A stretch of DNA of 64,000 bases, taken from NCBI GenBank assembly GCA_903868145.1, contig CAIPTY010000087.1:1-64000 (forward strand), read 5' to 3'. A model generated the notes under the pieces. That model made no database searches. It saw nothing but the letters and a program-made list of their open reading frames with translations, and was not told the origin of the DNA. This document shows positions 1-34,400 of this stretch, in pieces (positions within the stretch are counted from its first letter, which is position 1; each line of letters starts with the position of its first letter). The stretch is from an uncultured Desulfuromonadales bacterium. GTDB lineage: Bacteria; Desulfobacterota; Desulfuromonadia; Geobacterales; Pseudopelobacteraceae. Made by a program: the position numbers and the translations under genes.

Positions 1-260
1 GCAAAGAAAAAACAGACCTACACTGAGGAGAAATGACCACCCGAATATTTTTTGAATAATTATTAACATAAAAACCACCTTCTTAAATAATTTGTGTAAG
101 TCCAGCGCTTTTATATAACATAAAATCGTATCATGTCCATAATGACAATGAAAAGTCAGAGTAGATTTGCGCCCTAAAATACATTTGCTTCCCGCACCGA
201 TGTTTCGGAAATTCGTTGTACAGCAATATTTATTGCATATCTTCAAACGCTGAACCTGCC
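1..260. other. AT-rich non-coding region upstream of the transfer block
   Basis: No convincing gene is seen here. The stretch is clearly more AT-rich than the flanking genes. A weak promoter-like pair, TTGTAC at 216-221 and TATCTT at 238-243 (16-base spacer), brackets a perfect 6-bp inverted repeat GCAATA-TT-TATTGC (223-236), which would suit a repressor site. An AT-rich spacer next to mobilisation genes could also hold an origin of transfer, but no nick-site motif is recognisable. Promoter reading is inference. Confidence 0.35.
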
Positions 261-291
261 CCCCCTATAGATTATACATGTAGGGGGAATC
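261..291 (+). promoter_or_regulatory. Hairpin enclosing the ribosome site of the transglycosylase gene
   Basis: CCCCCTA at 261-267 is perfectly complementary to TAGGGGG at 281-287, extendable to a 9-bp stem with a 9-base loop. The 3' arm is the only purine-rich ribosome site before the ATG at 292. In the folded state the site is therefore buried, which would lower translation of the lytic enzyme. Pairing is seen in the sequence; the regulatory effect is inferred. Confidence 0.5.
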
Positions 292-807
292 ATGCGGCTC
301 GCCACTCTGATACTTTTACTGGGAATGTCTGCCGTTCCAACAAGACCGGCAGACGCCTTCTGCTATGAAGAAGCCGGTAACAGGTACGGAATCTCGCCAA
401 ACCTCCTCTATGCAATCTCCAAGGGAGAGAGCAGCTTTAACCCGATTGCAATCAACTACAACACAAACGGCAGCTACGATTATGGTCTCATGCAGATCAA
501 CTCTTCATGGGAGCCGACGCTGCGTAAGCTTGGAATTCCATGGGACACCCTTGCCGATCCCTGCACCAATGTCATGATCGGTGCCTGGGTGCTGTCCCAG
601 TGCATTCGAGACTACGGCTACACCTGGCCGGCAGTCGGCTGTTACAACTCTCGCACTCCGTCCAAGCGTGACCGCTATGCCGCCAGAATCGCCCGCATTG
701 TCAGACAGGAACAGCCACATAAGAGTGTCGAGCAGATTGCCGTAATCACTGATACCTCAAAAGTGACCCCGTGGGAGGAGGCCTTTGGCATCGTCGCTTC
801 CCGCTGA
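292..807 (+). CDS. Conjugation-associated lytic transglycosylase (VirB1/IpgF-like)
   Basis: A 171-residue secreted peptidoglycan hydrolase that would open the cell wall for the mating channel. Residues 1-22 form a signal peptide. A goose-type lysozyme (SLT) domain follows, with the catalytic glutamate E46 in ISKGESSFNP and the downstream DYGLMQINSSW motif typical of the family. Cysteines (24, about 100, 105 and 121) fit a periplasmic protein. The length is usual for VirB1-like plasmid enzymes. Its start lies directly behind a hairpin that hides the ribosome site, which may limit production of a potentially harmful enzyme. Its 3' end overlaps the next gene by 23 bases, so the two are translationally linked. 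Function from family knowledge; high confidence in the family. Confidence 0.9.
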   Translation: MRLATLILLLGMSAVPTRPADAFCYEEAGNRYGISPNLLYAISKGESSFNPIAINYNTNGSYDYGLMQINSSWEPTLRKLGIPWDTLADPCTNVMIGAWVLSQCIRDYGYTWPAVGCYNSRTPSKRDRYAARIARIVRQEQPHKSVEQIAVITDTSKVTPWEEAFGIVASR

Positions 808-1516
808 AATCCTTTCTGAAAGTGGATTGCCAACTGATGAAGCGATGGATGCCGTAGAGGTTGCCATTGCCAAAACTCTTACTGGCACCCTCAGGTCAAA
901 TGTGTGTGTCAAGATTGATGCGCAATTGGAGATTGTTGCCTACCCGATTGGGAATGGAGAACCGATCAAAATATCCCTGGATGATATCAACGGGAAATTG
1001 CGGAGACATCTTCTGTATCAAATCAAATTGGAACTGCAGAAACGCAGAACCCTGAACGAGTCTGATCGGTTAAAGGAGTTGAGAGGGTATTCCGCCCCTG
1101 GTGAAATTTCCCGGATAGCCGACGATGGCGCACTGATCGTCTCGCTGGAGATTGCCGACTATTACCGACGGCTTATCCTCTGCGGAGTCTGCCCGGCTCG
1201 ATTCCAGCCGTTTCATGAAGTGGGACGTTACGGCATCGGCAGCGTGAAGGAGTTCTACATCTCAAGTGTTGTCCCGGTCATGGTCAACAAGAGGTATTCC
1301 AAAGTCAGGATTATGCTCAGTCGCACATCGAAAGAATTGCCACGCCTCCTGTTGCAGGAGCGGAGCCGCATTGCTGGAATCACGTGCATTGAGCGCGTAC
1401 CGGGAGCCTACAGTTCCGTAGTGACTCCGGCAAGAATACCGAAAGAAATCATCAACTCTGTTGGAAAGGAACTGGAGGAGCACCTGCATGTTTCCATTCA
1501 AGAAGCGCAGCGATAA
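785..1516 (+). CDS. Truncated NusA-like RNA-binding protein (NTD, S1, partial KH)
   Basis: A 243-residue protein that follows the layout of transcription factor NusA but stops early. Residues 1 to about 95 resemble the RNA-polymerase-binding N-terminal domain (helix pattern LPTDEAMDAVEVAIAK, then a VCVKIDAQ strand). About 98-175 read as an S1 domain, ending in IMLSRTSKELPRLL, the NusA hallmark between S1 and KH1. About 185-240 look like a first KH fold (RVPGAYSSVVTPARIPKE). The second KH domain and acidic repeats are absent. Start is TTG at 785, chosen for the GGGAGGAG site at 773-780 and the fit to the NusA N-terminus. It may act in antitermination or RNA control within the element. I infer homology from pattern; no search was possible. 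Confidence 0.6.
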   Translation: MASSLPAEILSESGLPTDEAMDAVEVAIAKTLTGTLRSNVCVKIDAQLEIVAYPIGNGEPIKISLDDINGKLRRHLLYQIKLELQKRRTLNESDRLKELRGYSAPGEISRIADDGALIVSLEIADYYRRLILCGVCPARFQPFHEVGRYGIGSVKEFYISSVVPVMVNKRYSKVRIMLSRTSKELPRLLLQERSRIAGITCIERVPGAYSSVVTPARIPKEIINSVGKELEEHLHVSIQEAQR

Positions 1517-2876
1517 TTCAAACATACGTGTGACCAATCTGGGAACCGGCGTCAAGATGGATCACAGGACAAGAATTGTTCCTATTGCTATTCCCGACGC
1601 CGACAGGAAGCGGCATACCTTCGTTTTCGGTACCACCGGTGTCGGTAAGACCCGCCTGTGCGAAAACCTGATTGAACAGGATATCCGCAAGGGATACTCG
1701 GTGGTCTATTTCGACCCCAAGGGGGATCAGCAGATTTTCACCAAGATCTACGAAGTCGCACGAGAGGCAGAACGCTTGGAGGAATTGATGCTTGTCACCC
1801 CCATCTTCCCCGAATATTCCGCTGTGGTCGATCCGATGGCCTTTTATTTCATGCCGGACGAACTGGTCGGGCATATAGTTTCCGGCATTCTCGGCGGCAG
1901 AGAACCGTTCTACCGCAACATCGCCAAGGAAATAACCACCGCCGTCATATCCGCTTACATCATCCTGGCCAAGAAGCATGGGAACCTGCCGATTATGAAC
2001 ATTGACACCATCAGGCAGCGCATCAGGCGGGAATCACTTGAATCAACCATGAAGTCGCTCCGCAGTATCGGCACTGCTGAAGCAGAACTGACAGCAGGCA
2101 TGATCGAGGATATCCTCAAATCGCCCATGGAGTACTACGCCAAGGTCTCCTCGACTCTCCGCACTGCATTGATGGAACTTTCGGCAGGCAATATCGGAAA
2201 GATCATCGGTCAGGCGGACTCCAACCGCTTTATCAGAAAACTGGAAGCCGGCAAGCCGGTCATTCTGGTTGTCCATACCGGTGCTATGATCACCCGCGAA
2301 GCATCTGCCACCCTTGGCAAGGTATTGCTCTCAATGATCCAGTCCTTTGTCGGCCGGGTCTACCTTTCCAATCGGCAGAAGGTCAATCCGCCGCTCTCCA
2401 TTTTCATCGACGAGGCCCAGAGCCTACTATATCAGGGGGTGGAGGAGCTTTTCGCCAAGGCAGGTTCAGCCGATGTCATGGTGACCGCCTTCGCCCAATC
2501 GGTGAACCAGATCTATGCCGTTATCGGCGAAGAGTTCGGCAAGAGCATACTCGACAACACCAACACCAAGATCTTCATGCGCTGCTCGGACGCTGAGACC
2601 AGTGATTACGTGGTCAAGCACTTCGGGGTACAGAATGTGCTGACCGGCATCTTCGGCTCGAACCAGGTAACAACCCGCGAGGTGGAACAGGATATTCTCC
2701 GGGTTCAGGACGTGTTGAGTCTTCAGCCGCGCGAATTCTATCTGATGACCTATGCCGGGCGGTTCAAGGGTACCACTCTCAATGCCAACGATCCAAAAAT
2801 GAAGATTATTTTCCCCGCTGCGCCAGCATTTATCAGCTCTATGTTTACTCAGCCGGATGAGGCTGAATCGGCATGA
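1488..2876 (+). CDS. traD: TraD-like type IV coupling ATPase lacking a membrane anchor
   Basis: A 462-residue VirD4/TraD-class motor expected to bring the relaxase-DNA complex to the secretion channel. Walker A is GTTGVGKT at 48-55 and Walker B is LSIFIDEAQ near 304-312, followed by the conserved FAQSVNQIYAVIGE helix. The start at ATG 1488 is preferred over the TTG at 1461 because GGAGGAG sits 7 bases upstream. Most coupling proteins carry two N-terminal membrane helices and about 600 residues; here the protein begins almost directly with the ATPase core and no hydrophobic segment is visible. Its stop overlaps the next start (ATGA). The next protein does carry an N-terminal membrane helix, so the pair may share one anchor (inference). 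Confidence 0.8.
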   Translation: MFPFKKRSDNSNIRVTNLGTGVKMDHRTRIVPIAIPDADRKRHTFVFGTTGVGKTRLCENLIEQDIRKGYSVVYFDPKGDQQIFTKIYEVAREAERLEELMLVTPIFPEYSAVVDPMAFYFMPDELVGHIVSGILGGREPFYRNIAKEITTAVISAYIILAKKHGNLPIMNIDTIRQRIRRESLESTMKSLRSIGTAEAELTAGMIEDILKSPMEYYAKVSSTLRTALMELSAGNIGKIIGQADSNRFIRKLEAGKPVILVVHTGAMITREASATLGKVLLSMIQSFVGRVYLSNRQKVNPPLSIFIDEAQSLLYQGVEELFAKAGSADVMVTAFAQSVNQIYAVIGEEFGKSILDNTNTKIFMRCSDAETSDYVVKHFGVQNVLTGIFGSNQVTTREVEQDILRVQDVLSLQPREFYLMTYAGRFKGTTLNANDPKMKIIFPAAPAFISSMFTQPDEAESA

Positions 2877-4300
2877 ATACTACACTGTTAGGCATTTCAG
2901 CTGCAATCGGAATCGGATTTGTTCTGTATGGATACAGGAAATGGATACCAGTTGAAACACCTGTACCAGAGAACTCCGGGCTATCAGAGGTGACCAGGCT
3001 GGAAGATCTGGAGCATCTCTGGATCGACAACGAGGTTGAAATAAAAGATGCTTCAAACCTCTGGCGGGAAAAGACCAAAAAACAGAAATCAAATGAGCCA
3101 CGCCCGCAATTTCAGCACGATGAAATTGAGAAATTTTTCAGCGAGATGATTGAAAACAGGCCATCTGTACAAGGTGTACGAAGATCCCTGATCATCAGAA
3201 TTCTCATCATGCTTGACGATGAAGGCGACTGCCCGTCCGTAGTCAGGAAGCACAAGGATGAAGCGGAACGCATCTACTCTGATGACTCTTATGCTCTCCT
3301 GGAATCAGTGCCGCTCTACCGTCACACTTTGACGGTTGCCCGCAACTTCATTGCCAAATGTGATCAGGAGGCCTTACTGGCAGACATGATCCTTATCGCT
3401 CTGGCCCATGACATCGGCAAGATACCATCCTATCACGACGGCATGTACAGTAGCGGCGACCACCCGATCATAGCTGGACTCATATTGAAAGGAATTCCGG
3501 AATTCTTGTCTCTCCCCAATATGGAGGACATAAACCGTGCTGTCACCGGTCATCATCTGATGAAGTGCGACAACATCCTTACCGACGGTCTCAAGCATAG
3601 CGACCAAGAGGCACGACAAACCGAGTTGGCAAAACTCCATGCAGATCAGCGGGAGCGAAAAAAGCTTGAACAGGAAAACGACGCTGAACAAGCTGTTACC
3701 GTTAAAGTTGCAGCAGAACATACCGGTGCGACTAAAACCCAGCCTCCGGTCGAAGAGCGTGACAACCCTCTCGGGTTTAACCCGGCCAAAGAGAAGTTCA
3801 TGCCGACAACCATCGATATTCCTGACTGGTTCAACGCGGACGCCATTATTACCTCGTTGAAAAATCGGATCAATGTTGTGGAATCCACCTCGAAGGGTGA
3901 GCAGTGGTCGGTTGTTTCCATGCCCAATGGCCTGATCTATGTCAATCCCGATGCGCTCTGGGAAACCATCAAGGAAGTTAGCAGTTATGATCCGGTGGTG
4001 TATGCATCGGAGGGATTCGAATCAGAGAAACGGAACCTGATGTACACCGTTGTTTCGGAGCTGGCCAGAACCAGGAACGCCCTTGCAACAGGTCATGTCG
4101 CAGACGGCTACTACACCTCGCAGGTTTCCATCATTACCGGGGGCGGAAAGCGGGTTCCATATCTGCTGATTCCCTTCACTGCAGAATCTTTCGGAGTGCT
4201 TCCTTCAGCATTGGAGGAGCTGAAAACCCCGCAACTGAAGCGGATGGTGAAAGAAATCAAGCCAAAAAATAAAGAGGTGGAACAATGCGTTGGCCTTTGA
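2873..4300 (+). CDS. Membrane-anchored HD-domain protein, candidate divergent MobH relaxase
   Basis: A 475-residue protein with one N-terminal membrane helix (about 4-20), a variable linker, and an HD-type metal site: H151, H179-D180 in ALAHDIGK, H197 and H227-H228. A charged, probably coiled linker (about 235-300) leads to a C-terminal domain (about 320-460) with the pattern WFNADAIITSLKNRINV then NGLIYVNPDALWETI, which recalls the C-terminal winged-helix domain of MobH/TraI_2 relaxases. Position immediately after the coupling ATPase (4-base overlap) is the usual place for a relaxase, and no other relaxase is present. However, the double-histidine and GGLxxHS motif of classical MobH proteins is not clear, so it may instead be an HD phosphohydrolase with a transfer role. 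Confidence 0.5.
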   Translation: MNTTLLGISAAIGIGFVLYGYRKWIPVETPVPENSGLSEVTRLEDLEHLWIDNEVEIKDASNLWREKTKKQKSNEPRPQFQHDEIEKFFSEMIENRPSVQGVRRSLIIRILIMLDDEGDCPSVVRKHKDEAERIYSDDSYALLESVPLYRHTLTVARNFIAKCDQEALLADMILIALAHDIGKIPSYHDGMYSSGDHPIIAGLILKGIPEFLSLPNMEDINRAVTGHHLMKCDNILTDGLKHSDQEARQTELAKLHADQRERKKLEQENDAEQAVTVKVAAEHTGATKTQPPVEERDNPLGFNPAKEKFMPTTIDIPDWFNADAIITSLKNRINVVESTSKGEQWSVVSMPNGLIYVNPDALWETIKEVSSYDPVVYASEGFESEKRNLMYTVVSELARTRNALATGHVADGYYTSQVSIITGGGKRVPYLLIPFTAESFGVLPSALEELKTPQLKRMVKEIKPKNKEVEQCVGL

Positions 4301-5118
4301 TGGTTGTGGCGCTGCTTTCACTATCTGTTACTGCATCTGCCGGTTACTACACCGACTCATCCAAAGGCTGGTGGTGGTACCAGAAAGAGCCTGAGAAACA
4401 GTCCGACAAAACGGAAAAGAAGAAGAAACCGGCCAAAAGTGCGCCGTCCCTCAAGGACTACACCTATGAACAGATCTGGGAGATGCATCCCGATCAGTTC
4501 CAGGAGTTCGCCGAGGCATTGAAGAAGAAGGCGGTCCAGAAGCCGAGTGAAGAGAATGTGAAGGAGTACTTCGAGGTCCAGGAGATTGCCCGCAAGAAGG
4601 CGCTGGCATTTTCCAACGTGGCCCAGTTCGTCTGGCAGAAGTACCCGGAGCTGACAACCAAGAAGGACTATCCGATCACGACTCCCGGCAATCTGGCCCG
4701 GATCTCCCAGATCAATGAGGAGCGGCAGCGCATCCTGCGGGACAACCGGGATGACTTTGCCCTGATTTATTTCCAGAGACCTGACTGCAGCTACTGCGAT
4801 GAGCAATCCCGCATCCTTGACTGGTTCACCAACGAGACCGGCTGGACCGTGAAGAAGGTCAACATCAGTGAGAACCCGGGACTCGCCGCCAAATTCAGCG
4901 TGGAGATCACACCGACCCTGATCCTGATCCAGAAAGGAAATCAAGATTATCTGCCGGTGTCGGCAGGCGTCATTTCCGCCGACGAAATCGAGGACAAGGC
5001 ATACCGGGCCGTGAGGCTCCTGAAGGGTGACATCTCTCCGGAGGAATATTCGCTCTACGAATTCCAAAAAGGTGGCAGTTTCGACGTGAAGAAGCGCCGT
5101 CTCCAAGAGCGGCCATGA
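4285..5118 (+). CDS. traF: TraF-like pilus assembly protein with thioredoxin fold
   Basis: A 277-residue periplasmic protein of F-type transfer systems, needed for pilus assembly or mating-pair stability. A signal peptide ends near residue 19 (TASAGYY), followed by a lysine-rich linker and a C-terminal thioredoxin-like domain (about 155-250). It has a CSYC active site (C168, C171) and the cis-proline region VEITPTL. The TraF of the F plasmid has lost its CXXC, so this version is probably redox-active and could support folding of the cysteine-rich TraN, TraU and TraH. It overlaps the HD gene by 16 bases, and traH follows after 40 bases. Confidence 0.88.
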   Translation: MRWPLMVVALLSLSVTASAGYYTDSSKGWWWYQKEPEKQSDKTEKKKKPAKSAPSLKDYTYEQIWEMHPDQFQEFAEALKKKAVQKPSEENVKEYFEVQEIARKKALAFSNVAQFVWQKYPELTTKKDYPITTPGNLARISQINEERQRILRDNRDDFALIYFQRPDCSYCDEQSRILDWFTNETGWTVKKVNISENPGLAAKFSVEITPTLILIQKGNQDYLPVSAGVISADEIEDKAYRAVRLLKGDISPEEYSLYEFQKGGSFDVKKRRLQERP

Positions 5119-5158: not shown

Positions 5159-6643
5159 GTGAAACGAACCGTTATTACCAGAACCACCGCCGCCTGCTTG
5201 GCGGCAACCATTGCGTTGAACCCGGTACTTTCCTGGTCCGGCTGGGTCGATGACTGGGTGCAGCAGAAAAGCTCCACTTCGCCCAGCTATTATGAAGGGT
5301 CAAAGCGTGGCTACTACACTGGGGGGAGCTTTTCGGCCCGGTGGGCGAATACCGATGATCACCTTTTCACCGCTTCGCTGCCGAAACTGAAATCCGGCTG
5401 CGGCGGCATTGACATGTTTCTCGGCGGTTTCTCGTTTCTGAACGTGGATTATCTGGTGCAGAAGCTCCAGAACATCCTGTCGGCGGCTCCGGCGGCGGCC
5501 TTTGATATCGCCTTGAAGACCCTGGCGCCCCAGGTGGCCGACACTATCAAGACTCTCGAAGCGATCACCGACCGGCTAAACTCGCTGCAGTTGAACGACT
5601 GCAAGGCGGCCAAGGCGCTGGTGGCGACCGCTGCCAGTCCGTTTTCGTCGGTCATGTCCGACAGCCTGAAGGCTGAGATGAAAACAGCTCAGACCGACTT
5701 CATGGTGTCGAGCGGTGCCAAGGATCTTTACCAGGATGTCAGCAAGCTGTTCGAGAGCGAGCAGAAGACCAATGCCGGCAACAAGCCTGGCGTTCCCGGC
5801 ACGACCCAGACCTCAGCCACCAGCGCCACTGCCGGTTGCCCGACCGAAGTTCTGCAAGTCTTCGGAGATGGATCAGTCCTGGAAAATCTGGCCGGCAAAA
5901 AAGGGATGAGCAGCGAGTACGTCAAGCTGGTGCGCGGTTTCATCGGCGATGTGGTTATTCAGAACCCAGCGACGACCGGCACGACCTACCAGGCCCAGTA
6001 CATTCCTCCGTGCGATAAGAACAACAGCTTCGACTCCTTCATCAGCGGTTCCGCGCAGGGACGGGATACTGCCGGGGCCTGTGCTGACATCACCGATGCC
6101 AACAAGAACCTGATGGTCTACGTGGCCGGCAAGATGCAGTCCATCGCCACCAAGATCAAATCGAAGACGGCACTCACCGCCGACGAAGAGGCGTTTCTCA
6201 AGAGTACGCCGTTGTCGGTCGGCCTGATCCTCAAGAATGCCACGGCAACCAATACCGAAGGTGAAGTCATCGGTAAACTGGCGGAACTGACTGCCCGGGC
6301 TTACGGCTACTATATGCTGCTTGATCTTTTTGGACGGGCGGTCCAGATGCAGGAACTGGCCCGCAACATCATGTCTACCCAAAAGGGTAATAAAGCCGGG
6401 GCTTCACCGGAGACCTGCCAATTGGCGCTCCTCGGCGAAGGTATGCAGCATATCCAGACGCTTGAGGAAAAGACGCTACAACTGTTGAGTGTTGCACAGC
6501 AGAGTTACGCCAATGCAGCATCAGAGATTAATGCAGTCGAAATGATTGTCCAAAACATGAAGAAGTTCGACGACACGGTATTTGCGGAATTATCGGACCG
6601 CTTCGGCAAGGGAATCGCCATGCGGGCGACCGGTAGAATATAA
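5159..6643 (+). CDS. traH: TraH-like conjugal pilus assembly protein
   Basis: A 494-residue secreted protein of the F-type mating apparatus. Residues 1-27 form a signal peptide ending near LSWSG. The motifs SLPKLKSGCGGIDMFLGGFSF at about 73-93 and the long helical central and C-terminal parts are typical of TraH, which works with TraF and TraW in the outer-membrane and periplasmic assembly step. The length is close to the usual 450-480. The start is GTG at 5159 behind GAGAAGAG; an alternative GTG at 5151 is closed at once by a stop. Four or more cysteines suggest disulfides. The gene is followed by a small co-oriented gene with its own strong ribosome site. Confidence 0.92.
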   Translation: MKRTVITRTTAACLAATIALNPVLSWSGWVDDWVQQKSSTSPSYYEGSKRGYYTGGSFSARWANTDDHLFTASLPKLKSGCGGIDMFLGGFSFLNVDYLVQKLQNILSAAPAAAFDIALKTLAPQVADTIKTLEAITDRLNSLQLNDCKAAKALVATAASPFSSVMSDSLKAEMKTAQTDFMVSSGAKDLYQDVSKLFESEQKTNAGNKPGVPGTTQTSATSATAGCPTEVLQVFGDGSVLENLAGKKGMSSEYVKLVRGFIGDVVIQNPATTGTTYQAQYIPPCDKNNSFDSFISGSAQGRDTAGACADITDANKNLMVYVAGKMQSIATKIKSKTALTADEEAFLKSTPLSVGLILKNATATNTEGEVIGKLAELTARAYGYYMLLDLFGRAVQMQELARNIMSTQKGNKAGASPETCQLALLGEGMQHIQTLEEKTLQLLSVAQQSYANAASEINAVEMIVQNMKKFDDTVFAELSDRFGKGIAMRATGRI

Positions 6644-6665: not shown

Positions 6666-7067
6666 ATGGCTGAAAACAAGAATGAATCAATCGTGAAGAA
6701 ACCATCGGGAAAAGAGTCATGGCAGGACCGGAAACTAAAAAAGGTAGTCCGGGATGATATTGATGTCATCTCCAGAAAAACTCTGGACCAAAGCGACTTC
6801 ATCACCATGCTCAATACTCATGACAATGTGCTGCACCGCCTTCGCATGACCATGGGGCGTAATAGCAATATTACCTTTGAAAAAGCCCAGGAGTTTATCG
6901 AGAGGAGTCAGCAGATTCGAGAGGAAATAAATCTGCTGAATGCCGAGATGTGCGAACTGATGGAGTGGGACTACACGCCGCCACGCGGTTTTACCAACCC
7001 TCTTGAAAAGAGTGCCGGTGGAGAGAAAAAGGAAAGTAAGAAAACAGCTATAAAAGCTTCTTCTTAA
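6666..7067 (+). CDS. Small charged protein of unknown function after traH
   Basis: A 133-residue hydrophilic protein that I do not recognise. The start at ATG 6666 is chosen for the GGGAGG site 4 bases away; an upstream extension into traH is possible but has no ribosome site. The N-terminal 40 residues are very lysine-rich, the centre (about 70-105) is likely helical or coiled-coil (EKAQEFIERSQQIREEINL), and the tail is again basic. There is no signal peptide or membrane helix, so it is probably cytoplasmic and may bind nucleic acid or an ATPase. It is the last gene before a strong hairpin and so probably ends the transfer operon. Confidence 0.65.
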   Translation: MAENKNESIVKKPSGKESWQDRKLKKVVRDDIDVISRKTLDQSDFITMLNTHDNVLHRLRMTMGRNSNITFEKAQEFIERSQQIREEINLLNAEMCELMEWDYTPPRGFTNPLEKSAGGEKKESKKTAIKASS

Positions 7068-7079
7068 TGCAGTTACAGG

Positions 7080-7118
7080 CACGAATGTAAACCATTAGTT
7101 TACATTCGTGCACTTTAT
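7080..7118 (+). terminator. Terminator-like hairpin closing the first transfer block
   Basis: A perfect 13-bp inverted repeat (7080-7092 and 7098-7110, 5-base loop) lies 12 bases after the stop of the preceding gene and is followed by a T-rich run (ACTTTATTAATTTTT). The stem is only moderately GC-rich, so termination may be partial and could act in both directions. Pairing is directly visible. Confidence 0.7.
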
Positions 7119-7475
7119 TAATTTTTACGAGTATTTTAGACTCTTTCATAGAAAGAGACTCCGCTAGCTTATGCTACCGGACAAACTTCTTCGGAAAGCC
7201 CGAGGAAGAATCGCCCCGGCAGGGATGAACTCTCCGGAAAGATCAGGCCGCAGTTGCCCCTTTTCGGATGAACATCGGAAGATTTTTTTCTTGTCTTTCG
7301 AACAGTCGCTTGGGTAAAGCGACTTAAATACGAGGTACAGGTGCGTCCTTTTCCGGACTCTGCCTATAAACCAATTATCTCTGAAGAATAACGACCCGTT
7401 CCGGCATAGCCAGAGTGGGTTTTTTATTACCAATTCCGCGACAAGCCTTGTAAGCGGCGGATACTTTCACCACAT
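7119..7475 (+). ncRNA. Structured intergenic stretch, possible small RNA
   Basis: No plausible protein gene is seen over about 360 bases. A perfect 8-bp hairpin AGTCGCTT/AAGCGACT lies around 7306-7326. A terminator-like element, ACCC ... GGC-ATA-GCC ... GGGT followed by TTTTT, lies at 7394-7426, upstream of the ssb leader, so some transcript probably ends here. GGA triplets, several in CGGAAAG or CGGATG contexts, are more frequent than expected, as in CsrA-binding RNAs. That interpretation is speculative; an untranslated leader of the ssb operon is the simpler alternative. Confidence 0.3.
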
Positions 7476-7556
7476 CCCGACCGGGAGACACTTTGTTCTC
7501 TCCCTACGGGACAGACATCTGTCTCTTTGCTTCGGGAAAACCAACAAGGAGGCAGT
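7476..7556 (+). promoter_or_regulatory. Leader 1: A/B/C switch-like RNA before ssb
   Basis: A short CCCG-AC-CGGG hairpin runs into GAGACA (A, 7485-7490). A TCCC-TAC-GGGA hairpin follows, then CTGTCTC (B, 7519-7525), which can pair with A or with GAGGCAG (C, 7549-7555, one G-U pair) overlapping the AAGGAGG ribosome site. A:B and B:C are mutually exclusive. The same plan recurs before other genes in this block. Confidence 0.6.
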
Positions 7557-7976
7557 ATGGCAAGTTTGAACCGTGTAGAACTCATCGGCAATCTGGGTCG
7601 TGATCCTGAAATCAGGTACACACCAGGAGGCACCGCTGTCGCAAGTTTTTCACTCGCGACCAGTGAGAAGGTAAAAACCAAAAGTGGCGAATGGGAGATC
7701 CGGACCGAGTGGCACAACATCGTCCTCTACGCACGTCTCGCAGAAGTAGCTGGCGAGTACCTGTCGAAAGGAAAAAGTGTCTACCTCGACGGTAAACTCA
7801 AGACCCGCAAATGGCAAGATCGGGACGGTAAAGATCGCTACACAACCGAGATCATCGGCGACAAGCTTCTTATGCTTGGCAGTAAAAATGGCAGCATTCC
7901 TGACGGGAGTGACGACCAGCCATCAAACAGCCAGGCACATGAGGACATTCCGCACGATGACACCGATCCGTTCTAA
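7557..7976 (+). CDS. ssb: Single-stranded DNA-binding protein
   Basis: A 139-residue SSB with a complete OB fold: [18 protein letters not shown] at the start, then [20 protein letters not shown] and [21 protein letters not shown], all standard. A short disordered acidic tail ends in DDTDPF, a slight variant of the usual DDDIPF tip that recruits repair and replication partners. The start at ATG 7557 follows AAGGAGG and gives the canonical N-terminus. Mobile elements carry their own SSB to protect the incoming strand. Here it opens a recombination module with the next two enzymatic genes, and it is preceded by a switch-like leader. Confidence 0.96.
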
Positions 7977-7995: not shown

Positions 7996-8085
7996 AACAG
8001 TCCTACGGGGAGACATTACCAAATCCCCAAAGGGATTGGTCTGTCTTCTCTGTCGGACACAACCCACAGAAAAGGAGACAGACAG
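7996..8085 (+). promoter_or_regulatory. Leader 2: A/B/C switch-like RNA
   Basis: A is GGGGAGACA (8007-8015). A hairpin of CCAAATCCC with GGGATTGG (8019-8039) follows. B is GTCTGTCTTCTC (8039-8050), and C is GGAGACAGAC (8074-8083), containing the ribosome site. AGACA in A and AGACAGAC in C compete for the same B segment. A second small hairpin, TCTGT ... ACAGA, lies between B and C. Confidence 0.6.
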
Positions 8086-9042
8086 ATGAACGCACCAGCT
8101 CAAATCATTCCCATCAACCCCGCAGCATCATCCCTCACTCACCACGCCGTCAACATCAGTGAACTGAAGGCCCAGGTAAACCTGATCCAGTACGTCATGC
8201 GTGACGTCATGAAATCAGGCGAGCACTACGGCACCATTCCCGGCTGCGGAGACAAAGCTGTTCTCCTCAAACCGGGCGCCGAAAAGCTCATGCTTACCTT
8301 CAGACTGGCAAACGACGTGGATGTGGAAACCATCGACCTGCATCTCGGCCATCGCGAGTATCGCATCAAGGTGACGCTCTACTCACCGGCAGGCCAGCGT
8401 CTCGGTACAGGTGTCGGTTCATGTTCGACTATGGAAAGCAAGTATCGTTTCCGTGTCGGGCCAGTTGAACTGACGAATAAGCCGGTACCGAGGGAGTACT
8501 GGGATCTTCGCAAGGAGAACCCGGCATTGGCTCAGGAGATCATTGGTGGACGCGGCTTCAGCGCAAAAAAGGATGACAGCGGCAACTGGAAAATCGCCAG
8601 GCAGGGAGAAAAGGTGGAGCACGATAATCCGGCAGATTTTTATAACACGTGTCTCAAGATGGCTAAGAAACGCGGCTTGGTAGATGCAGTACTCACCTCG
8701 ACCGCCGCCTCGGACATATTCACCCAGGACATCGAGGAAGATCCTGACCTTTACGGACAGACGGAACACAACGGAGGAAACAGTGCCGGCAACACCAGCA
8801 CTACTTCCGGTAATTCGCAGTCTGCCAGACCGGACAGCACCCCATCATCACACGGAGCCGAACCAGTTTCGACTTCCGAGATCATCGGGTATCTGACGGC
8901 TAAGGGAATCAGGATGGAACTCTCCGCAGATGAATCGGAGATATCAGCCTTCCCGGACTTCAACGACACCTCAGCCCGCCAATGGTTGAAAGACCACGGC
9001 TTCAAATGGGACGGCAAAGGCAAATGCTGGCAGTACCGGTAG
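8086..9042 (+). CDS. Phage/plasmid-type DNA recombination protein, possibly ssDNA annealing
   Basis: A 318-residue cytoplasmic protein of a type common on phages and conjugative elements. The core (about 25-215) has the motifs KSGEHYGTIPG, LLKPGAEKLMLTF and YNTCLKMAKKRGLVDAVL followed by ASDIFTQDIEE. I recall these from uncharacterised proteins near ssb and exonuclease genes, in the place where RecT/Rad52-like annealing proteins usually lie. A serine/asparagine-rich linker (about 226-260) joins a small C-terminal domain (about 262-318) ending in HGFKWDGKGKCWQYR. Placement between ssb and a Cas4-like nuclease supports a role in homologous recombination, as in the bet/exo/ssb set of SXT-type elements. 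The annealing function is inferred, not shown. Confidence 0.55.
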   Translation: MNAPAQIIPINPAASSLTHHAVNISELKAQVNLIQYVMRDVMKSGEHYGTIPGCGDKAVLLKPGAEKLMLTFRLANDVDVETIDLHLGHREYRIKVTLYSPAGQRLGTGVGSCSTMESKYRFRVGPVELTNKPVPREYWDLRKENPALAQEIIGGRGFSAKKDDSGNWKIARQGEKVEHDNPADFYNTCLKMAKKRGLVDAVLTSTAASDIFTQDIEEDPDLYGQTEHNGGNSAGNTSTTSGNSQSARPDSTPSSHGAEPVSTSEIIGYLTAKGIRMELSADESEISAFPDFNDTSARQWLKDHGFKWDGKGKCWQYR

Positions 9043-9072: not shown

Positions 9073-9166
9073 CAACCTACCTCTGCAGGGAGACAACGAC
9101 TTTCTCCCTACCGGGGGTGTCTTGTCTCCTCTGTCGAGTACAACCCACAGAAAAGGAGACAAGAAC
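9073..9166 (+). promoter_or_regulatory. Leader 3: A/B/C switch-like RNA
   Basis: A is GGGAGACAA (9088-9096), B is TTGTCTCC (9122-9129) and C is GGAGACAA (9155-9162), which covers the ribosome site. B matches both A and C over 8 bases without mismatch, so the two pairings exclude each other. A CTCCCTACCGGGGG hairpin lies between A and B, and TCTGT ... ACAGA between B and C. Confidence 0.65.
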
Positions 9167-9334
9167 ATGAATACTCAGATCATCAAACACGTAACTATCA
9201 AAGGCTATCAGGTGCCGGTCTATGCTCCCACCAAGAAGGAATTCCAGGTCAGCATCAACGTCACCCGGATCATTACCGGCGTCATCTTCGGCTCGCTGCT
9301 TACCGCAGTCGGAGCAATACCATTTCTGATCTGA
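9167..9334 (+). CDS. Small single-pass membrane protein
   Basis: A 55-residue protein starting at ATG 9167 behind AAAAGGAGACAAGAAC; the ribosome site and leader decide this start over an upstream in-frame codon. The first 30 residues are soluble (MNTQIIKHVTIKGYQVPVY) and the last about 22 form one hydrophobic helix (TRIITGVIFGSLLTAVGAIP). I do not recognise a family. It is the first gene of a unit with the Cas4-like nuclease 12 bases downstream, which is an odd partner for a membrane peptide. It might be mainly a leader cistron for the nuclease. Confidence 0.6.
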   Translation: MNTQIIKHVTIKGYQVPVYAPTKKEFQVSINVTRIITGVIFGSLLTAVGAIPFLI

Positions 9335-10321: not shown

Positions 10322-10405
10322 ACCAACCCCACCAGGGGGCATCACGCTCCCCATGGGAAATCTCCATTCATGGAGGCGTGTTGCCCCCAGAAAAGGAGAT
10401 TACCG
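10322..10405 (+). promoter_or_regulatory. Leader 4: variant hairpin leader masking the ribosome site
   Basis: GGGGGCATCACGC (10335-10347) pairs with GCGTGTTGCCCCC (10376-10388) with one mismatch and encloses a perfect CTCCAT-TC-ATGGAG hairpin (10362-10375). The segment AAATCTCC (10358-10365) can instead pair with GGAGATT (10395-10401), the ribosome site. The topology differs from the other leaders but the logic (sequestered versus free site) is the same. Confidence 0.55.
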
Positions 10406-10609
10406 ATGAAAACCTACCGCACCGGTACGTTACCGCCTGACCTCAAGTCCTTTACCCGCGAGAACAGATTCGAAGATCTGAAGGAGGCTCTTCAGACCAT
10501 AGCGTCGCTGATCCTCATAGCTGCAATGCTCTTCGTGTTCATGTTTGTCGCTGCAGCTCCACCGGAGCCCCAGGTTTATCCGAAAGGCTGGGAGGAGGTG
10601 CGGGGATGA
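10406..10609 (+). CDS. Small single-pass membrane protein
   Basis: A 67-residue protein starting at ATG 10406 after AAAAGGAGATTACCG. A soluble, charged N-terminal half (about 1-33, rich in K, R, E) is followed by one membrane helix (about 34-54, SLILIAAMLFVFMFVAAA) and a short proline-rich tail. No family recognised. Like the 55-residue gene upstream, it is the first cistron behind a structured leader and overlaps the next gene by 4 bases, so translation of the two is coupled. Confidence 0.6.
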   Translation: MKTYRTGTLPPDLKSFTRENRFEDLKEALQTIASLILIAAMLFVFMFVAAAPPEPQVYPKGWEEVRG

Positions 10610-11331: not shown

Positions 11332-11415
11332 CGACACCTGGCAGGGAGAGCATGACATCCCTGCGGGGGAGTCTGTCTCCCTGTCCGGTTACCACACACT
11401 GCACAGGAGGCAGAC
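11332..11415 (+). promoter_or_regulatory. Leader 5: A/B/C switch-like RNA before the CobS-like operon
   Basis: A is CAGGGAGA (11342-11349), perfectly complementary to TCTCCCTG inside B (TCTGTCTCCCTG, 11372-11383). C is GGAGGCAGA (11406-11414), which pairs with TCTGTCTCC of B with a single G-U pair. C contains the ribosome site for the ATG at 11416. Confidence 0.65.
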
Positions 11416-12357
11416 ATGAACTACGAAATCAGAAGCACGTTCAATATTGACGCGCCGAAATCAGTTACCATCAAGGGGAGAACACCGGGAAATCCGGCGG
11501 TTCCCCAACAGGACATCCAGTACATTTTCCGGCAGTCAACCCTGTCGGATCTGTTCACCTGGTATCTCCTCGGCGAACGCTCGCTTTATCTCACCGGCCC
11601 GACCGGCTGCGGCAAATCCTCCGTCATCATCGAGGTGGCCGCCCGGCTCAACATCCCCCTCTGGAATGTTGTCGCCCACTCCCGGCTGGAAACACCGGAA
11701 CTGATCGGCGGCTACCGGCTCAATGCCGGCGGCGGTATGGATTTCGTGCATGGGCCGCTCATCATTGCCATGAAGGAAGGTGGCTGGTTTCTGATCGATG
11801 AAATTGATCTGCTCGATCCTTCCACTGCTGCGGGATTGAACGGTATTGCCGAAGGCCGCCCCATCACCATTCCGGAAACGGGAGAAGTGGTAGCGGCTCA
11901 TCCGGACTTCCGTTTCATCGCCACCGCCAACTCCAACGGAGCCGGTGACGCCACAGGTCTCTACCAGGGGATACTGCGGCAAAATCTGGCTTTTCTCGAC
12001 CGTTTCTACATGATCGAGGTCGGTTATCCCGACCCGGACATCGAAAAGAAAATCCTGACCGAAGTGGCGCCATCTGTCGGTAGCGACATCAGAGACCGCA
12101 TGGTAGCCATCGCAAACGAGATCAGAGCCCTGTTTGTCAAAGGGGAGACTGAAGTCACCCTCTCGACCCGCACCTTGACCCGGTGGGCACGAATCACCGC
12201 CTTCCAGGGACGGGCCGCGGCAAGTCAGGGCATGTCCAACGGCGAAACACTGACCAAGGCCTTCGACCGGGCACTCGGCTTCCGGGCTGAACCCGATACC
12301 CGCAACGCCCTGCACGCAGTATTGCAGCGCCACTTCGGGGACCGGAGGTCGCCATGA
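11416..12357 (+). CDS. CobS/MoxR-like AAA+ ATPase
   Basis: A 313-residue AAA+ ATPase of the MoxR/CobS branch. Walker A is GPTGCGKSS at about 61-69, Walker B is FLIDEIDLL near 126-134, and the family insert VAHSRLETPELIGGYRL lies between. ATANSNG (sensor 1) and STRTLTRWAR (sensor 2 region) follow. Such ATPases work with VWA partners as chelatases or remodelling chaperones; here the VWA partner is the gene starting at 13757. No cobalamin genes are nearby, so it is not a cobaltochelatase. SXT/R391-type elements carry a similar cobS-like gene beside their recombination genes, matching this layout. The four-gene unit is tightly spaced behind one leader. Confidence 0.85.
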   Translation: MNYEIRSTFNIDAPKSVTIKGRTPGNPAVPQQDIQYIFRQSTLSDLFTWYLLGERSLYLTGPTGCGKSSVIIEVAARLNIPLWNVVAHSRLETPELIGGYRLNAGGGMDFVHGPLIIAMKEGGWFLIDEIDLLDPSTAAGLNGIAEGRPITIPETGEVVAAHPDFRFIATANSNGAGDATGLYQGILRQNLAFLDRFYMIEVGYPDPDIEKKILTEVAPSVGSDIRDRMVAIANEIRALFVKGETEVTLSTRTLTRWARITAFQGRAAASQGMSNGETLTKAFDRALGFRAEPDTRNALHAVLQRHFGDRRSP

Positions 12358-20442: not shown

Positions 20443-20511
20443 TTAACCCGTGCGGGGACAGAAACCCCCGTAAGGGTCGGTCTGTCCCCGCGCATTACAA
20501 GGAGACAGTCC
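20443..20511 (+). promoter_or_regulatory. Leader 8: A/B/C switch-like RNA
   Basis: A is GCGGGGACAG (20452-20461) and B is CTGTCCCCGC (20482-20491), a perfect 10-bp stem around an ACCC/GGGT inner hairpin. B can alternatively pair with C, GGAGACAG (20501-20508), in seven of eight positions. C is the ribosome site for the ATG at 20512. Confidence 0.65.
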
Positions 20512-20946
20512 ATGACAGACACCATATCAGCAAAACGCCTCATCATTCCCGTTCACGACAACAGCGAGTTCTTCTCTGACAACGCTGACTACGCCGTCAT
20601 CGATCTTGATGCCACGCTTATCGAGCGGATCAAGAAACTTGCGGTGGTTGTAAGGCAGATGAAAGCCTACAAAATCAGCGAATTCAACCATGCCTGTGAC
20701 TTCATGGCGGCTGACTGGGATGCCGAGCCGGACAACGGCAAGGTAGCCCTGAAGGAATTTGAGGGACGAATGGAGTGTAATACTCTGAACGTCACCGACA
20801 GTGATTTCTTCTGGTCGGGCTATTACAAACATACTGATGTTCGGTGGGAAACCGACACGGTGCTGCTTGTAGTGCTCGACGAGCCAGGCATCCATGATGA
20901 ACGGGAAACTTGCACAGATGTGACCGGTCAAGGTGAATCACCATGA
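20512..20946 (+). CDS. Unknown protein, 144 residues
   Basis: No family recognised. A soluble, acidic protein with a clear globular core (DYAVIDLDATLIERIKKLAV, then a helix with NHACDFMAADW) and a strand-rich end (WETDTVLLVVLDEPG). It begins right behind leader 8 with GGAGACAG as ribosome site and overlaps the next gene by 4 bases, so the two are made together. Proteins of this sort are common in accessory parts of mobile elements. Confidence 0.6.
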   Translation: MTDTISAKRLIIPVHDNSEFFSDNADYAVIDLDATLIERIKKLAVVVRQMKAYKISEFNHACDFMAADWDAEPDNGKVALKEFEGRMECNTLNVTDSDFFWSGYYKHTDVRWETDTVLLVVLDEPGIHDERETCTDVTGQGESP

Positions 20947-21166: not shown

Positions 21167-21239
21167 CAACCCCATCGGGGAGATACGTCTCCCTCCGGGG
21201 TTTCTGTCTCCCCGCACCATCAATCAAAGGAGACAGACC
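21167..21239 (+). promoter_or_regulatory. Leader 9: A/B/C switch-like RNA, clearest example
   Basis: A is CGGGGAGA (21176-21183), B is TCTGTCTCCCCG (21203-21214) and C is GGAGACAGA (21229-21237). A:B is a perfect 8-bp match and B:C a perfect 9-bp match that hides the ribosome site. A can also form a local GGGAGA-TACG-TCTCCC hairpin (21178-21193), which would free B to bind C. Confidence 0.7.
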
Positions 21240-21938
21240 ATGGCAGACTACATGAATCAATCAATATTCCAACCTTCCATTCCCAAACACCTGATCAACG
21301 ACGAGGACCGACGCATTATCGAGGCGTTCAGCATCACCTTTGAATCCGACGGCGAGGACAAGTTCTACCTCTACGCGGATGAATGGTGTTGTAACGGCTA
21401 CCTCGATTCCGAGGAACCCGATGGTGAGGAGATCGAACTCAGTGAGGACGATCTTTTCAGCAGATTCCAGGAGATCATTCGCCGTTCCAACGGCGAACTT
21501 CCCTGGATCTCCAAGGAAAGCGCCTATACCTGTTCGCGGATGCGACCGGATGGCTTCGGCGGTGGAGCAGTATTCATCACCGCTGATGACATTCAGTACA
21601 GCTTTACCGGCCAATGGCTGGAACAGCGGATCAGCGAAACAGAAACCGGCGATATCGGCCCCCAGACGGAAGATCCACCTCCGTCCAAACCGATTGTCGG
21701 AGTGATCCTCGAAGGCGGTCTGGTCCAGAGCATTGTCAGCAATGCACCGGAGCAGATTTCGGAAATGGACGTGATTATTCTCGACTACGATGTCGAGGGG
21801 TTCGAGGAGGAATGTCTTCTCAAAGTTCCCCAGAGCAGCGGCGAAATCGCTCGTGCTGTTGGACACATCGAGAAGATTACCGAGTCCGGAATCGATCTGG
21901 GAATGGTTCTCAATCAAATGAACGCAAGGGGGTGGTGA
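21240..21938 (+). CDS. Acidic protein of unknown function, 232 residues
   Basis: A strongly acidic protein (many D and E, few K) with two parts: an N-terminal segment (about 20-135) and, after a proline-rich linker (about 140-152), a C-terminal segment starting PIVGVILEGGLVQSIVSN. That second motif, V-x-EGG-x-V-Q-x-I-x-S, followed by a D-rich strand, is common in small proteins of conjugative elements, but its function is not known to me. The high acidity could reflect DNA mimicry or simply element-type composition; no decision is possible by eye. Confidence 0.6.
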   Translation: MADYMNQSIFQPSIPKHLINDEDRRIIEAFSITFESDGEDKFYLYADEWCCNGYLDSEEPDGEEIELSEDDLFSRFQEIIRRSNGELPWISKESAYTCSRMRPDGFGGGAVFITADDIQYSFTGQWLEQRISETETGDIGPQTEDPPPSKPIVGVILEGGLVQSIVSNAPEQISEMDVIILDYDVEGFEEECLLKVPQSSGEIARAVGHIEKITESGIDLGMVLNQMNARGW

Positions 21939-23003: not shown

Positions 23004-23067
23004 TCAACCCTATGGGGGCGGACACTGCCCTCGGGGTGGTCCGCCCTCAACATTTCAGGAGGCGGAC
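23004..23067 (+). promoter_or_regulatory. Leader 10: A/B/C switch-like RNA before radC
   Basis: A is GGGCGGAC (23016-23023) and B is GTCCGCCC (23039-23046), a perfect 8-bp stem around CCC-TCG-GGG. C is GGCGGAC (23061-23067), overlapping AGGAGG, and pairs perfectly with GTCCGCC of B over 7 bases. The core sequence (GGCGGAC) differs completely from the GGAGACA core of other leaders, yet all three parts agree. Confidence 0.7.
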
Positions 23068-23559
23068 ATGAATCTCGATCTCTTCGGAGAACCAGTAGCA
23101 CCCACAACAAAAAGAATCTTCATAAAATCAATTGAAGCCCGTTACCGCAACGAGGTTGTCAGAGATGACGCCCCACAGTGGGTATCAATGCGGTTTACGC
23201 AGCCTCAACAGGTATTCGAAATGTTCCAGGATCTCCGTTTGGAGACGAAGGAGCACTTCATCGTTCTGCATTTGGACGGGAAGAACCGGATCGTATGCTT
23301 TGACCGAGTATCGATTGGCTCGCTTAATCAGGCCATCGTCCATAGTCGCGAAGTCTACAAAACGGCATGCATCTCGAATGCAGCGGCAATCATTCTGATG
23401 CATAACCACCCTACAGGTGACCCGACACCCAGCCAGGAAGATATCGCCATTACCAGACGTCTCAAGGAAAGTGGCGAAATTCTCGGCATCAAGGTTTTGG
23501 ATCACATCATCATTGGTGATGGCGAGTTTCTGAGTTTTGTCGAACGGGGACTCTTGTAA
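23068..23559 (+). CDS. radC: RadC-family JAB/MPN protein
   Basis: A 163-residue RadC without the N-terminal helix-hairpin-helix domain of chromosomal versions. The JAB/MPN metal site is intact: HNHPTGDPTPSQED at about 112-125, and an upstream glutamate in the region KEHFIVLHLDGKNRI. Its end, HIIIGDGEFLSFVERGLL, is canonical. RadC proteins are frequent on mobile elements. The early link to radiation repair was later questioned, and the biochemical role is open. The start at ATG 23068 follows AGGAGG. A switch-like leader precedes it and a terminator follows 8 bases after the stop. Confidence 0.93.
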   Translation: MNLDLFGEPVAPTTKRIFIKSIEARYRNEVVRDDAPQWVSMRFTQPQQVFEMFQDLRLETKEHFIVLHLDGKNRIVCFDRVSIGSLNQAIVHSREVYKTACISNAAAIILMHNHPTGDPTPSQEDIAITRRLKESGEILGIKVLDHIIIGDGEFLSFVERGLL

Positions 23560-27212: not shown

Positions 27213-30200
27213 CTAGATGTCAAATGGCGGCTCAAGATTGATACTCAACTCTTGAGTAATTCGAGAAACCTCAGATTCTGGAAACCTTGACAGGAGGTAT
27301 TCGACAAGATCCTCTTGCCGTGCCTGACCAAAAACCATCCGATATACGACAAGCGATTTTCGCAAGGCAAACAAGCGCTCACGATCCCGGCTTAGTGGCA
27401 GAGTCGGAACGTGACGCTCAATTTTAGCACCCCCCTCCAAAGGATAAATCCAGAATGGAACAAGATCCGTTGCATCAATTGCACGATCTTGCCGACCATG
27501 GGCAAAAAGCGCTTCCCATGGGTCGTTGTTTTCAGCTTCCTTGGTCTTATTCATTCCATAAAAACTCGCAAGATTTTTACGAACGGCATGTCCTTTGTAA
27601 CGGTGAACACGTCCTTCCCGCTGCTCCATATCAACTGGATTCGAAGGTAGGTTCCAGTGTACAACTGCATGGCAATAGGTGTGGAAATCGAGTCCTTCCT
27701 GTCCTACTGAAGTCGTAGCTAAAACAAACGGCCAGAATGGAGAATTGAAAGCATCCCTTACCTGCCCCGCCCGGGTAATAACAGCGCCTTCATCGTTTTT
27801 TTCCTCACCAAAGCGGAGAGCGAAATGCCCACGCATTCTTCTTCCTTCCACCCTGACGGTTTTGTTTTCCGCATCGACGGCTACTTCATCTACCCCTAGC
27901 GTTGACGTCCGCAAGCTGAGCGATTCCCCCATAACACTGGCAACCTGACGGGCGATCTCCTCTGGAGCATGATCTACAAGTCCCAGTGACTCTCGCAGGG
28001 TATGTGCATATTCATCAAGTGCCGACTGTAGTCCCCCTGCTGCTGAGTATTCGACTACTCTTCGCCAGTAAGGTTCTTCACGGTTCAGGCTTCTAATAAA
28101 GGCCGTCACTTCGGGGAGATTGAACAGGGATCGAAAACACCATGCAACCTGTCCGGCATACCCTTTAATGACCGAGGTAATGCCATTGATCCCTCCGGTA
28201 ACTCTGGCTAACGACCGGAGAGCGGTGACACCCGGTCCTGCAAGCGCGATTTGCGCAAGGACACGGGATAAATCAGCTGGCTTTCGGCCTAAAGCAAGCT
28301 CGCCATTTGCCAGCTTCAGGGCATATTCCACATGAGCAGACCAGGCAGACTCGTCCTCGCCGCCTTCCTGCTGGTCATGGGTGCCGTCTGACCAACTACC
28401 CGCGAGGTTAGGAGAACGCAACCATTCTCTTGATAAGTCGGCATCAAATTGGAGATCAAGAAGGATCGGTGCTGCCCAGTACCATGTTTCGTCTTCGGGA
28501 CCGGCAACTTCGACCCCAGACTTAATATTTACCAGCAATTGTTCAATTGTTTGTTCTGCCCATTGAAGGACATCCGCCAGAGACGGCAAGTCATCGCTTG
28601 TTTCATAAAGGAGAGGGTCGCAATACTTCGTAAGGGTTGTACACGGATAGAGAAGGCCGAGCAATGGCATGCCGGTTAATCGTTCGTCAGTGCGGGCAAA
28701 GCGAAGGAGGGGGCGTCGCCGTTTTCTGGCGTCCAGCGAATTCTCAGGATGTTCTTCGAACGAGGAAATCATCCTTCTCTCAACAGCATAACTGAGCATC
28801 GTGGCCACGACCTTGGGAACCATCCGCCAAGAGGAAAAAACCAGTCGCTTGGTGAATTTACGTAAGGCCGGATCTGCAAAAGGTCCCTCAAGCCGGTAAT
28901 ACGGAAGAGCCGGCGGAATCCAAAGTAACTTCCAAGCACCGGTCTCTATAACATCTGCATGCAATCCGCGCAGGCGAGAATTGTTAGGATCAATTTCGTG
29001 ATATTTGACAATGTCACCCCAAGGAATGAGAAGGTTTTCAGAGACAGTAATGGCATCGGCAAGTTCTTCATTCTTATTAGAAATGCTGATTGCGTCTACG
29101 AAAACCTGTTTCAGCTTGTAGTCATCCATGAAATTGAGCAGATACGGAGCTGACTTCCAGTATTCTAGAGCATTCCCCTGATCCAGAACTTTCGTTATTC
29201 TCTGCATCCCCAGGTAAGCATCCAAATCCTGAGCTTCGAGAGTTACCTTGACAGGGGGTATTTCCGTAAGCATGCCATCACGGTCTACAGTTGCTGCGAG
29301 CCGCTCAGTTCGAACCATGATTCGGCGAAGTTGTGCTTCCAGACCAAGTTTGGAATCTTCGAGCATTTCGCTGCCGCCGTTCCCAAGGCGATAAAGTTCC
29401 CGACGGTAATTCCCTACCAGCTTTTCGAAGAGAGGAGTGTTTCCCGGCTCCAGAAAACGCATTGTACGCATGAAATCCTCATAATGGTCATCGTCGCCTG
29501 ATTCCTCGGAAAGCGTGTACATCTTGTAAGGAGTCGCAGAAAGAAGAAGAACACGAGCACGGGAGTTTTCATCTGCATAATCAAACAGTCCATGGGCAAG
29601 CCGGCTCGTTTCGCTTTCTGCGTCCAGAAGATGTTTGAAACGCTGGAACTCGTCCAGAATGATAAGATCCGGCTCCAAAGCGGCCAGACACGTTTCTGCA
29701 AGCAGAGATCGCATTTCCCCGATGAAATTCAGACGTTCTCGTTTCTCTATATCAGGAATGTTTTCATATTTGCGCGCCCGAGCAAAACTGCTACAGAGAC
29801 TATCAAAGCGAGACCTGAAATCAGTGCGACCTGCTTCCTTGTCATTCTTAACATGCTTGGTCAGTACATCAGCGAACTTCTGTGCCAGGGACGGATCAAT
29901 ATGGTTTCTCTCGCGGTAGCCATTAACAAGTGCGCGAAAACGATCCTTGTCGGCGTATCCTTGCAGAACGTTGAAAGGACCGGTACTCCCTTCTATCCGC
30001 CACGCCCTATTCAGAAGCCAATAGAGCAAAGCACGCTCGTCGGCTGTTCCCATACTCGATTTGAGGTCAAAAGATGTGCTCGGTGTAAACGAGATGAAAT
30101 TCAGTTTATTTTCCTGAAGGGACTTGATCTCGATCGGCAGGAGAGTTATCCGTGACGAAAGGGCAAACTCACTCTGCCCACTTGGTTTGAGCCTGTTGAT

Positions 30201-33533: not shown

Positions 33534-33670
33534 GGAAATAGTCTCCTGTCAAACTTAGACCATCAATCTTCAGAATGCTCACACTGACATCAGGAACGAT
33601 ACTCTTCTCCTGAATCGTCGGAATGCCTCCGAACCATGGCGAGAATTGTTGTTCTTTCTATGCAATCAAG

Positions 33671-33682
33671 CAGATTGCGCCA
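33671..33682. repeat. 12-bp direct repeat, right copy
   Basis: Second copy of CAGATTGCGCCA, identical to 27180-27191. It lies between the start of the Azaca-like module and a decayed helicase gene. Confidence 0.45.
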
Positions 33683-33694
33683 TTTGTCCGAAGT

Positions 33695-34373: not shown

Positions 34374-34400
34374 GTAATTCTCCTTTAGCCGGATCTTGCC

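Follow-up and report, generated by a model that had tools for sequence, protein, structure and literature searches.

The protein encoded at positions 785-1516 (+) of the window, i.e., the whole 64,000-nucleotide stretch from an uncultured Desulfuromonadales bacterium that was analysed, almost certainly descends from NusA, a universal factor that travels with RNA polymerase. It represents a conserved family found in at least two phyla rather than debris, it keeps the N-terminal body and the S1 domain of NusA in their order and reaches into the first KH domain, and its gene is tied to the gene for the TraD-like coupling protein, the DNA-transfer motor of a type-F conjugation system.

The gene and its operon

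The gene is an intact open frame with a TTG start, which is conserved in close relatives (L007-L012) along with an upstream GGAGG or GGGAGG. It overlaps both the end of the preceding lytic transglycosylase gene and the start of the following TraD gene, and the block to which it belongs comprises the following features:

292-807, + strand: lytic transglycosylase (SLT), operon gene upstream of the NusA-like gene (Pfam SLT, 2e-20; conserved gene order)
774-778, + strand: ribosome-binding site GGAGG, 6 nt 5' of the TTG start (sequence)
785-1516, + strand: NusA-like protein gene, 243 amino acids plus stop (open frame; NusA homology)
1488-2876, + strand: coupling protein, TraD/VirD4-like (Pfam TrwB_AAD_bind and TraG-D_C)
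2873-4300, + strand: HD-domain protein of the conserved operon (Pfam HD, 7e-6; position conserved)
4285-5118, + strand: TraF-like pilus assembly protein (Pfam TraF, 1e-70)
5159-6643, + strand: TraH (Pfam TraH, 3e-102)
6666-7067, + strand: orf7, small, conserved, last gene of the block (open frame; position conserved)
7079-7111, + strand: intrinsic-terminator-like hairpin 3' of orf7, 14 bp stem (consensus match only)

This last hairpin is not generally conserved among the relatives. Further type-F genes, namely TraE, TraK, TraB, TraC, TraU, TrbC, TraN and TraG, lie on the opposite strand of the contig.

Several other features of the region may be recorded in passing. The operon's opening gene, SLT, has its ribosome-binding site covered by a hairpin at 258-285 (+), CCCCCCTA...TAGGGGG. 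The coupling protein at 1488-2876 (+) is only 462 amino acids long and, judged by eye, appears to begin directly at the ATPase domain and to lack an N-terminal membrane segment. Between the transfer blocks, an HsdR-like protein, a large helicase and a PLD-domain protein are clustered at 27213-37427 (-) as a possible defence island.

Descent from NusA and domain architecture

Taken alone, the window protein is uninformative: it had no Pfam match and only a chance match in NCBIfam, phmmer against the PDB returned only chance matches to allophycocyanin, and the matches in PHROGs were likewise at the level of chance. The relationship emerges from its family, for which relatives were collected from species genomes, plasmids and IMG/VR; 51 open reading frames among the collected loci match the NusA-like gene, some loci containing one place twice. 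A profile of 26 family sequences searched against the PDB recovered NusA at E 4.9e-6, with 11 of the 12 matches being NusA, and a profile of 25 sequences that included distant members, a Campylobacter plasmid protein among them, recovered it at E 5e-8 with NusA in all of the top ten places. These distant members were reached by iteration from the window protein, so that profile drift is a consideration; it is countered by the NCBIfam NusA model (TIGR01953), which was built independently and yet is matched directly by 11 of the 25 members, at best with 2e-14 over the first 200 positions. When two distant members were used singly as tblastn queries against all plasmids, the weak next matches were NusA genes. 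The scans of IMG/VR yielded a single relative (L123), and no relative of the gene was found in the phage records scanned.

Profile-profile comparison leads to the same result. HHalign of the family against a profile of 60 NusA sequences gave a probability of 95.5%, and later of 97.2%, with E 3.3e-11; in the first comparison the real score was 65.1, whereas none of 30 column-shuffled alignments exceeded 23.8 and a reversed one scored 16.1. For the genome's other S1 proteins the HHalign probability was no higher than 13.5%, compared with 44.7% for a single-sequence NusA. The family-invariant residues G106, G152, R180 and R204 are identical to G140, G175, R198 and R227 of the host NusA, against a background of large divergence (approximately 14-18% identity).

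The predicted structure was obtained from AlphaFold2 (AF2), run template-free on seven sequences with no NusA among them. One of five models was usable, with a mean pLDDT of 65.4 (about 60-90 across residues 12-180), while the other seeds reached 34-50; eight close sequences gave a pLDDT of 43.7, and the addition of one divergent IMG/VR sequence raised it to 65.4. The modelled fold runs helix-helix-beta-beta-beta-long helix and then into a five-strand OB barrel, and the protein can accordingly be divided as follows:

785-1081, + strand: NTD-like part, residues 1-99, globular head absent (AF2 helices 7-11 and 17-36, strands 40-44, 50-54 and 61-63, helix 70-99)
1082-1330, + strand: S1 (OB-fold) domain, residues 100-182 (AF2 strands 103-111, 117-124, 129-136, 154-167 and 171-179)
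1331-1513, + strand: degenerate KH1 remnant, residues 183-243, without alpha-1/GxxG (HHalign)

A Foldseek search with this model placed NusA in all of the first 13 ranks, at E 2.2e-8 to 1.5e-4 and spanning both the N-terminal domain (NTD) and S1. VIA-align gave a Z of about 11 for several NusA chains, with 162 residues superposed at 3.6 Å on 5lm7, and the S1 part alone fitted the NusA S1 of 2atw/2asb with an rmsd of 2.0 Å over 77-78 residues; the structure alignment carries residues 3-184 onto the NusA NTD and S1. The Pfam cut-off for S1 is exceeded by one family member (L049). The preliminary description of this DNA had read the protein as a NusA paralogue running from the N-terminal domain through S1 into the first KH domain, and had proposed HHpred or AlphaFold comparisons, in which a predicted structure without the S1 and KH folds, or top matches from some other family, would count against it. 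That reading is borne out by the family profile, NCBIfam, HHalign and Foldseek: the S1 fold is modelled and NusA comes first.

The C-terminal and NTD details call for some refinement. In the KH1 part, the family retains the LSRT helix, the R-PG strand and the final helix and strand, but the alpha-1/GxxG segment is absent from its alignment, the HHalign path skipping 12 NusA residues around DPVGACVG. Thus the protein does extend into KH1, as described earlier, but lacks the segment carrying the GxxG. It stops after this remnant, so that KH2 is absent, as are the acidic repeats; the C-terminal 60 residues have no confident AF2 model (pLDDT < 50). In E. coli NusA, the NTD consists of a helical body (alpha-1, alpha-2, beta-1, beta-2, alpha-4) and a globular head (alpha-3, beta-3, beta-4) (PMC4642336). 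The body is present in the model and matched to that of NusA, and the head is missing. A head-less NTD occurs naturally in the NusA of Mycobacterium tuberculosis (1K0R) and Planctomyces limnophilus (4MTN), for which the corresponding residue ranges have been given (PMC4642336). Both of these structures are among the best matches by profile and by fold, which speaks for an NTD-type reading of the family. The NusA proteins of these two organisms are otherwise full ones, with S1, KH1 and KH2.

Since the protein fails the defining features of NusA, i.e., the KH1 GxxG, KH2 and the curated score (the best family member attains 53.3 bits on the NCBIfam model, below the curated cut-off of 253.4), the family should be called a NusA-derived paralogue family and not NusA proper. 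It shares with NusA the succession of NTD body, S1 and beginning of KH1, along with the two glycines and two arginines; it differs in being only 243 amino acids long, without the NTD head, KH1 GxxG, KH2 and acidic repeats, and in being borne on elements and tied to a coupling-protein gene.

Two other origins for this likeness may be weighed here. A generic S1/OB-fold protein that converged on NusA would account for the absence of direct database matches to the window protein, and for the Campylobacter member matching ribosomal S1 models rather than NusA. This is very improbable, given that the match extends in sequence order from the NTD through S1 to the beginning of KH1, that NusA comes first in four kinds of search (PDB profile, HHalign, NCBIfam and Foldseek), and that the invariant residues are those of NusA. 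A functionless, decaying copy of a captured chromosomal nusA, to which the several missing parts and the large divergence might point, is even harder to credit, for the frame is open in nearly all homologues found, the length and neighbours are unchanged across two phyla, and the invariant residues are kept. The earlier label "truncated" holds in the sense of a shortened protein lacking KH2 and the NTD head, but not in that of a broken gene, as the architecture is stable and conserved in both phyla.

Distribution and linkage to the coupling-protein gene

The NusA-like gene occurs in 37 of the 277 genomes of the class Desulfuromonadia. The 277 genomes hold 40 copies of a window-type TraD, 38 of which are immediately preceded by the gene in the same orientation, with a gap between the matched parts of -26 to +302 nt; the two remaining copies stand at the very edge of their contigs, starting at bases 8 and 3, which places the upstream region outside the view, so that the pairing holds in 38 of 38 testable cases. 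It persists to distant TraD homologues (L126, L128). The order SLT, NusA-like, TraD, HD, TraF, TraH, orf7 recurs on the plasmids pSD and pPRO1 and in other copies. On pSD and pPRO1 a CI-like helix-turn-helix (HTH) gene lies just upstream of SLT, giving HTH-SLT-NusA-like-TraD-HD-TraF-TraH as the order in Desulfuromonadia. With TraF, TraH, TraU and TrbC as neighbours of the NusA-like genes, and with pSD and pPRO1 typed as MPF_F, the association with type-F transfer genes is conserved and specific, in agreement with the earlier placement of the gene inside a conjugation operon.

In the other phylum, three Campylobacterota plasmids (of C. iguaniorum, Nitrosophilus labii and C. upsaliensis) carry a homologue at or near the start of an operon for an HD-domain and a coupling protein: on the C. 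upsaliensis plasmid it opens the operon, and on the other two it comes second, after a small open reading frame. A divergent helix-turn-helix gene adjoins the operon in all three. As a separate observation, genes for an HD-domain phosphohydrolase, an HD-domain protein and a diguanylate cyclase flank the coupling protein on Campylobacterota plasmids (L144, 9158-13506; L171, 7529-11739; L172, 8838-10457), hinting at nucleotide signalling tied to transfer. On a Desulfosarcina plasmid, a gene annotated as sigma-70 (L145, 10781-11341 (-)) lies approximately 1.3 kb from the NusA-like gene and has a relative in L125; an argument from this association was dropped because Pfam does not confirm the annotation.

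Putative role in transcription and rival readings

There is about an even chance that the protein is a conjugation-dedicated, fast-evolving NusA paralogue that binds RNA polymerase and alters pausing or termination in the tra genes, possibly by displacing the host NusA. E. coli NusA contacts the beta-flap tip with the concave side of its NTD body, by way of residues that include Leu27, Leu31, Ile43 and Val45 (PMC4642336). These map to V24, I28, V40 and V42 of the window protein in an LP-anchored ungapped segment alignment, the last position being shifted on the HHalign path, and the columns are mostly hydrophobic. This makes RNA polymerase binding plausible, and on balance somewhat probable, even if hydrophobic columns would also be compatible with simple core packing. 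The N-terminal helical body would thus probably bind the flap tip in the manner of NusA, and we infer that the protein contacts RNA, the S1 domain touching the nascent transcript. As the protein has no NTD head, no GxxG segment in KH1, no KH2 and no acidic repeats, most of the sequence-specific RNA reading of NusA is expected to have been lost.

Such a protein might occupy the NusA site on polymerases transcribing the tra genes and so change their pausing or termination. Host NusA stimulates hairpin pausing and intrinsic termination; in the simplest form of this mechanism, its displacement would lessen NusA-stimulated termination in the long tra operons, the displacing factor having its own gene near the start of the very operon on which it would act. 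The early position and the repressor-like neighbouring genes fit a regulator. For LoaP, antagonising NusA suffices for antitermination (PMC12691694). Antitermination by the NusA-like protein is a more tentative proposition: a scan of the tra blocks found no clear excess of strong intrinsic terminators inside them, and a need for antitermination is therefore not evident.

Among rival readings, the most substantial is that the transfer machine has recruited the NusA-derived protein, whose S1/OB fold would bind single-stranded nucleic acid or the coupling protein and serve in substrate handling rather than transcription. The strict pairing with TraD, often with overlapping genes and holding as far as distant TraD homologues, would fit a role at the coupling protein; the SLT, HD and TraD neighbours are parts of the machine, and OB folds such as SSB appear in the Foldseek list. 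Nevertheless, this is rather unlikely, as one or two genes separate the homologue from the coupling protein on the three Campylobacterota plasmids, one copy (L124) lies on the opposite strand about 1 kb from the coupling-protein gene, and an NTD of the type that binds RNA polymerase, unnecessary for a nucleic-acid binder, has been kept.

The preliminary description had also suggested that the protein is a candidate partner of structured leaders further along the window, which would make it an RNA-binding translation regulator of the downstream accessory genes by way of leaders that mask the Shine-Dalgarno sequence. The leaders, each comprising two hairpins, are as follows:

7474-7560, 7999-8087, 9079-9168 and 10326-10408, + strand: two-hairpin leaders
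11335-11419, 20446-20514, 21169-21242 and 23006-23071, + strand: further two-hairpin leaders

They stand in front of eight or more genes lying between 7.5 and 23 kb; in most copies, the second hairpin masks the Shine-Dalgarno sequence by pairing with it. A covariance model found them in 42 of the 277 genomes of the class. Thirty of these have the NusA-like gene and pSD carries both, but 12 (many of them fragmentary) lack it, 11 of the 12 also lacking the window-type TraD. Two contigs of 75 and 143 kb (G504:C16 and G511:C15), from genomes without the window-type TraD, carry the leaders and SSB, yet the approximately 16 and 13 kb read upstream contain no tra genes. The gene follows TraD, not the leaders; with a KH1 devoid of GxxG besides, a partnership with them is improbable, and the suggestion is not upheld. 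As leaders and SSB occur without tra genes nearby and without the gene, the leaders belong to an SSB/accessory module independent of the NusA-like protein. A conserved structured RNA of about 300 nt at 7140-7435 (+), before the SSB gene, has a folding z-score of -5.3, a terminator-like hairpin at its end and no Rfam match; it too occurs in elements without tra genes and without the NusA-like gene.

The transcriptional reading, i.e., a NusA paralogue acting on tra expression, may be set beside known systems. Specialised NusG paralogues, such as RfaH, LoaP and ActX, are well known, and their working parallel is that of a specialised paralogue of a general elongation factor devoted to particular operons; target signals are known for RfaH and LoaP. 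They are built on NusG (NGN-KOW), whereas the present family is built on NusA: the Pfam and NCBIfam scans of the family gave no NusG-family match, and the alignment of residues 3-184 to the NusA NTD and S1 leaves no room for an NGN domain, in keeping with the earlier contrast to NusG/RfaH-type factors of mobile elements. LoaP itself acts by antagonising NusA (PMC12691694). A Gram-positive system in which antitermination serves a conjugation operon is bipartite, and is comparable by function (PMC8955417). Most of the NusA genes in phage and plasmid records are full-length, and many are on megaplasmids or in misfiled host sequence, as judged by record sizes and annotation; a search of open-access papers yielded no NusA paralogue devoted to a conjugative element. 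It is conceivable, if still doubtful, that the family defines a class of NusA-derived mobile-element factors spanning two phyla, in which a minimal NusA (NTD body and S1) takes the NusA site and renders tra transcription termination-resistant.

Conjugative plasmids may thus supply a transcription factor of their own for regulating DNA transfer. Should the protein bind RNA polymerase, it would be a natural minimal NusA revealing which parts of NusA suffice for the control of pausing or termination, as well as a handle on the regulation of type-F transfer among environmental bacteria. Were its site of action the coupling protein, it would instead exemplify the rare conversion of a transcription factor into a component of a secretion system. 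Either way, a conserved gene annotated as hypothetical gains a testable identity.
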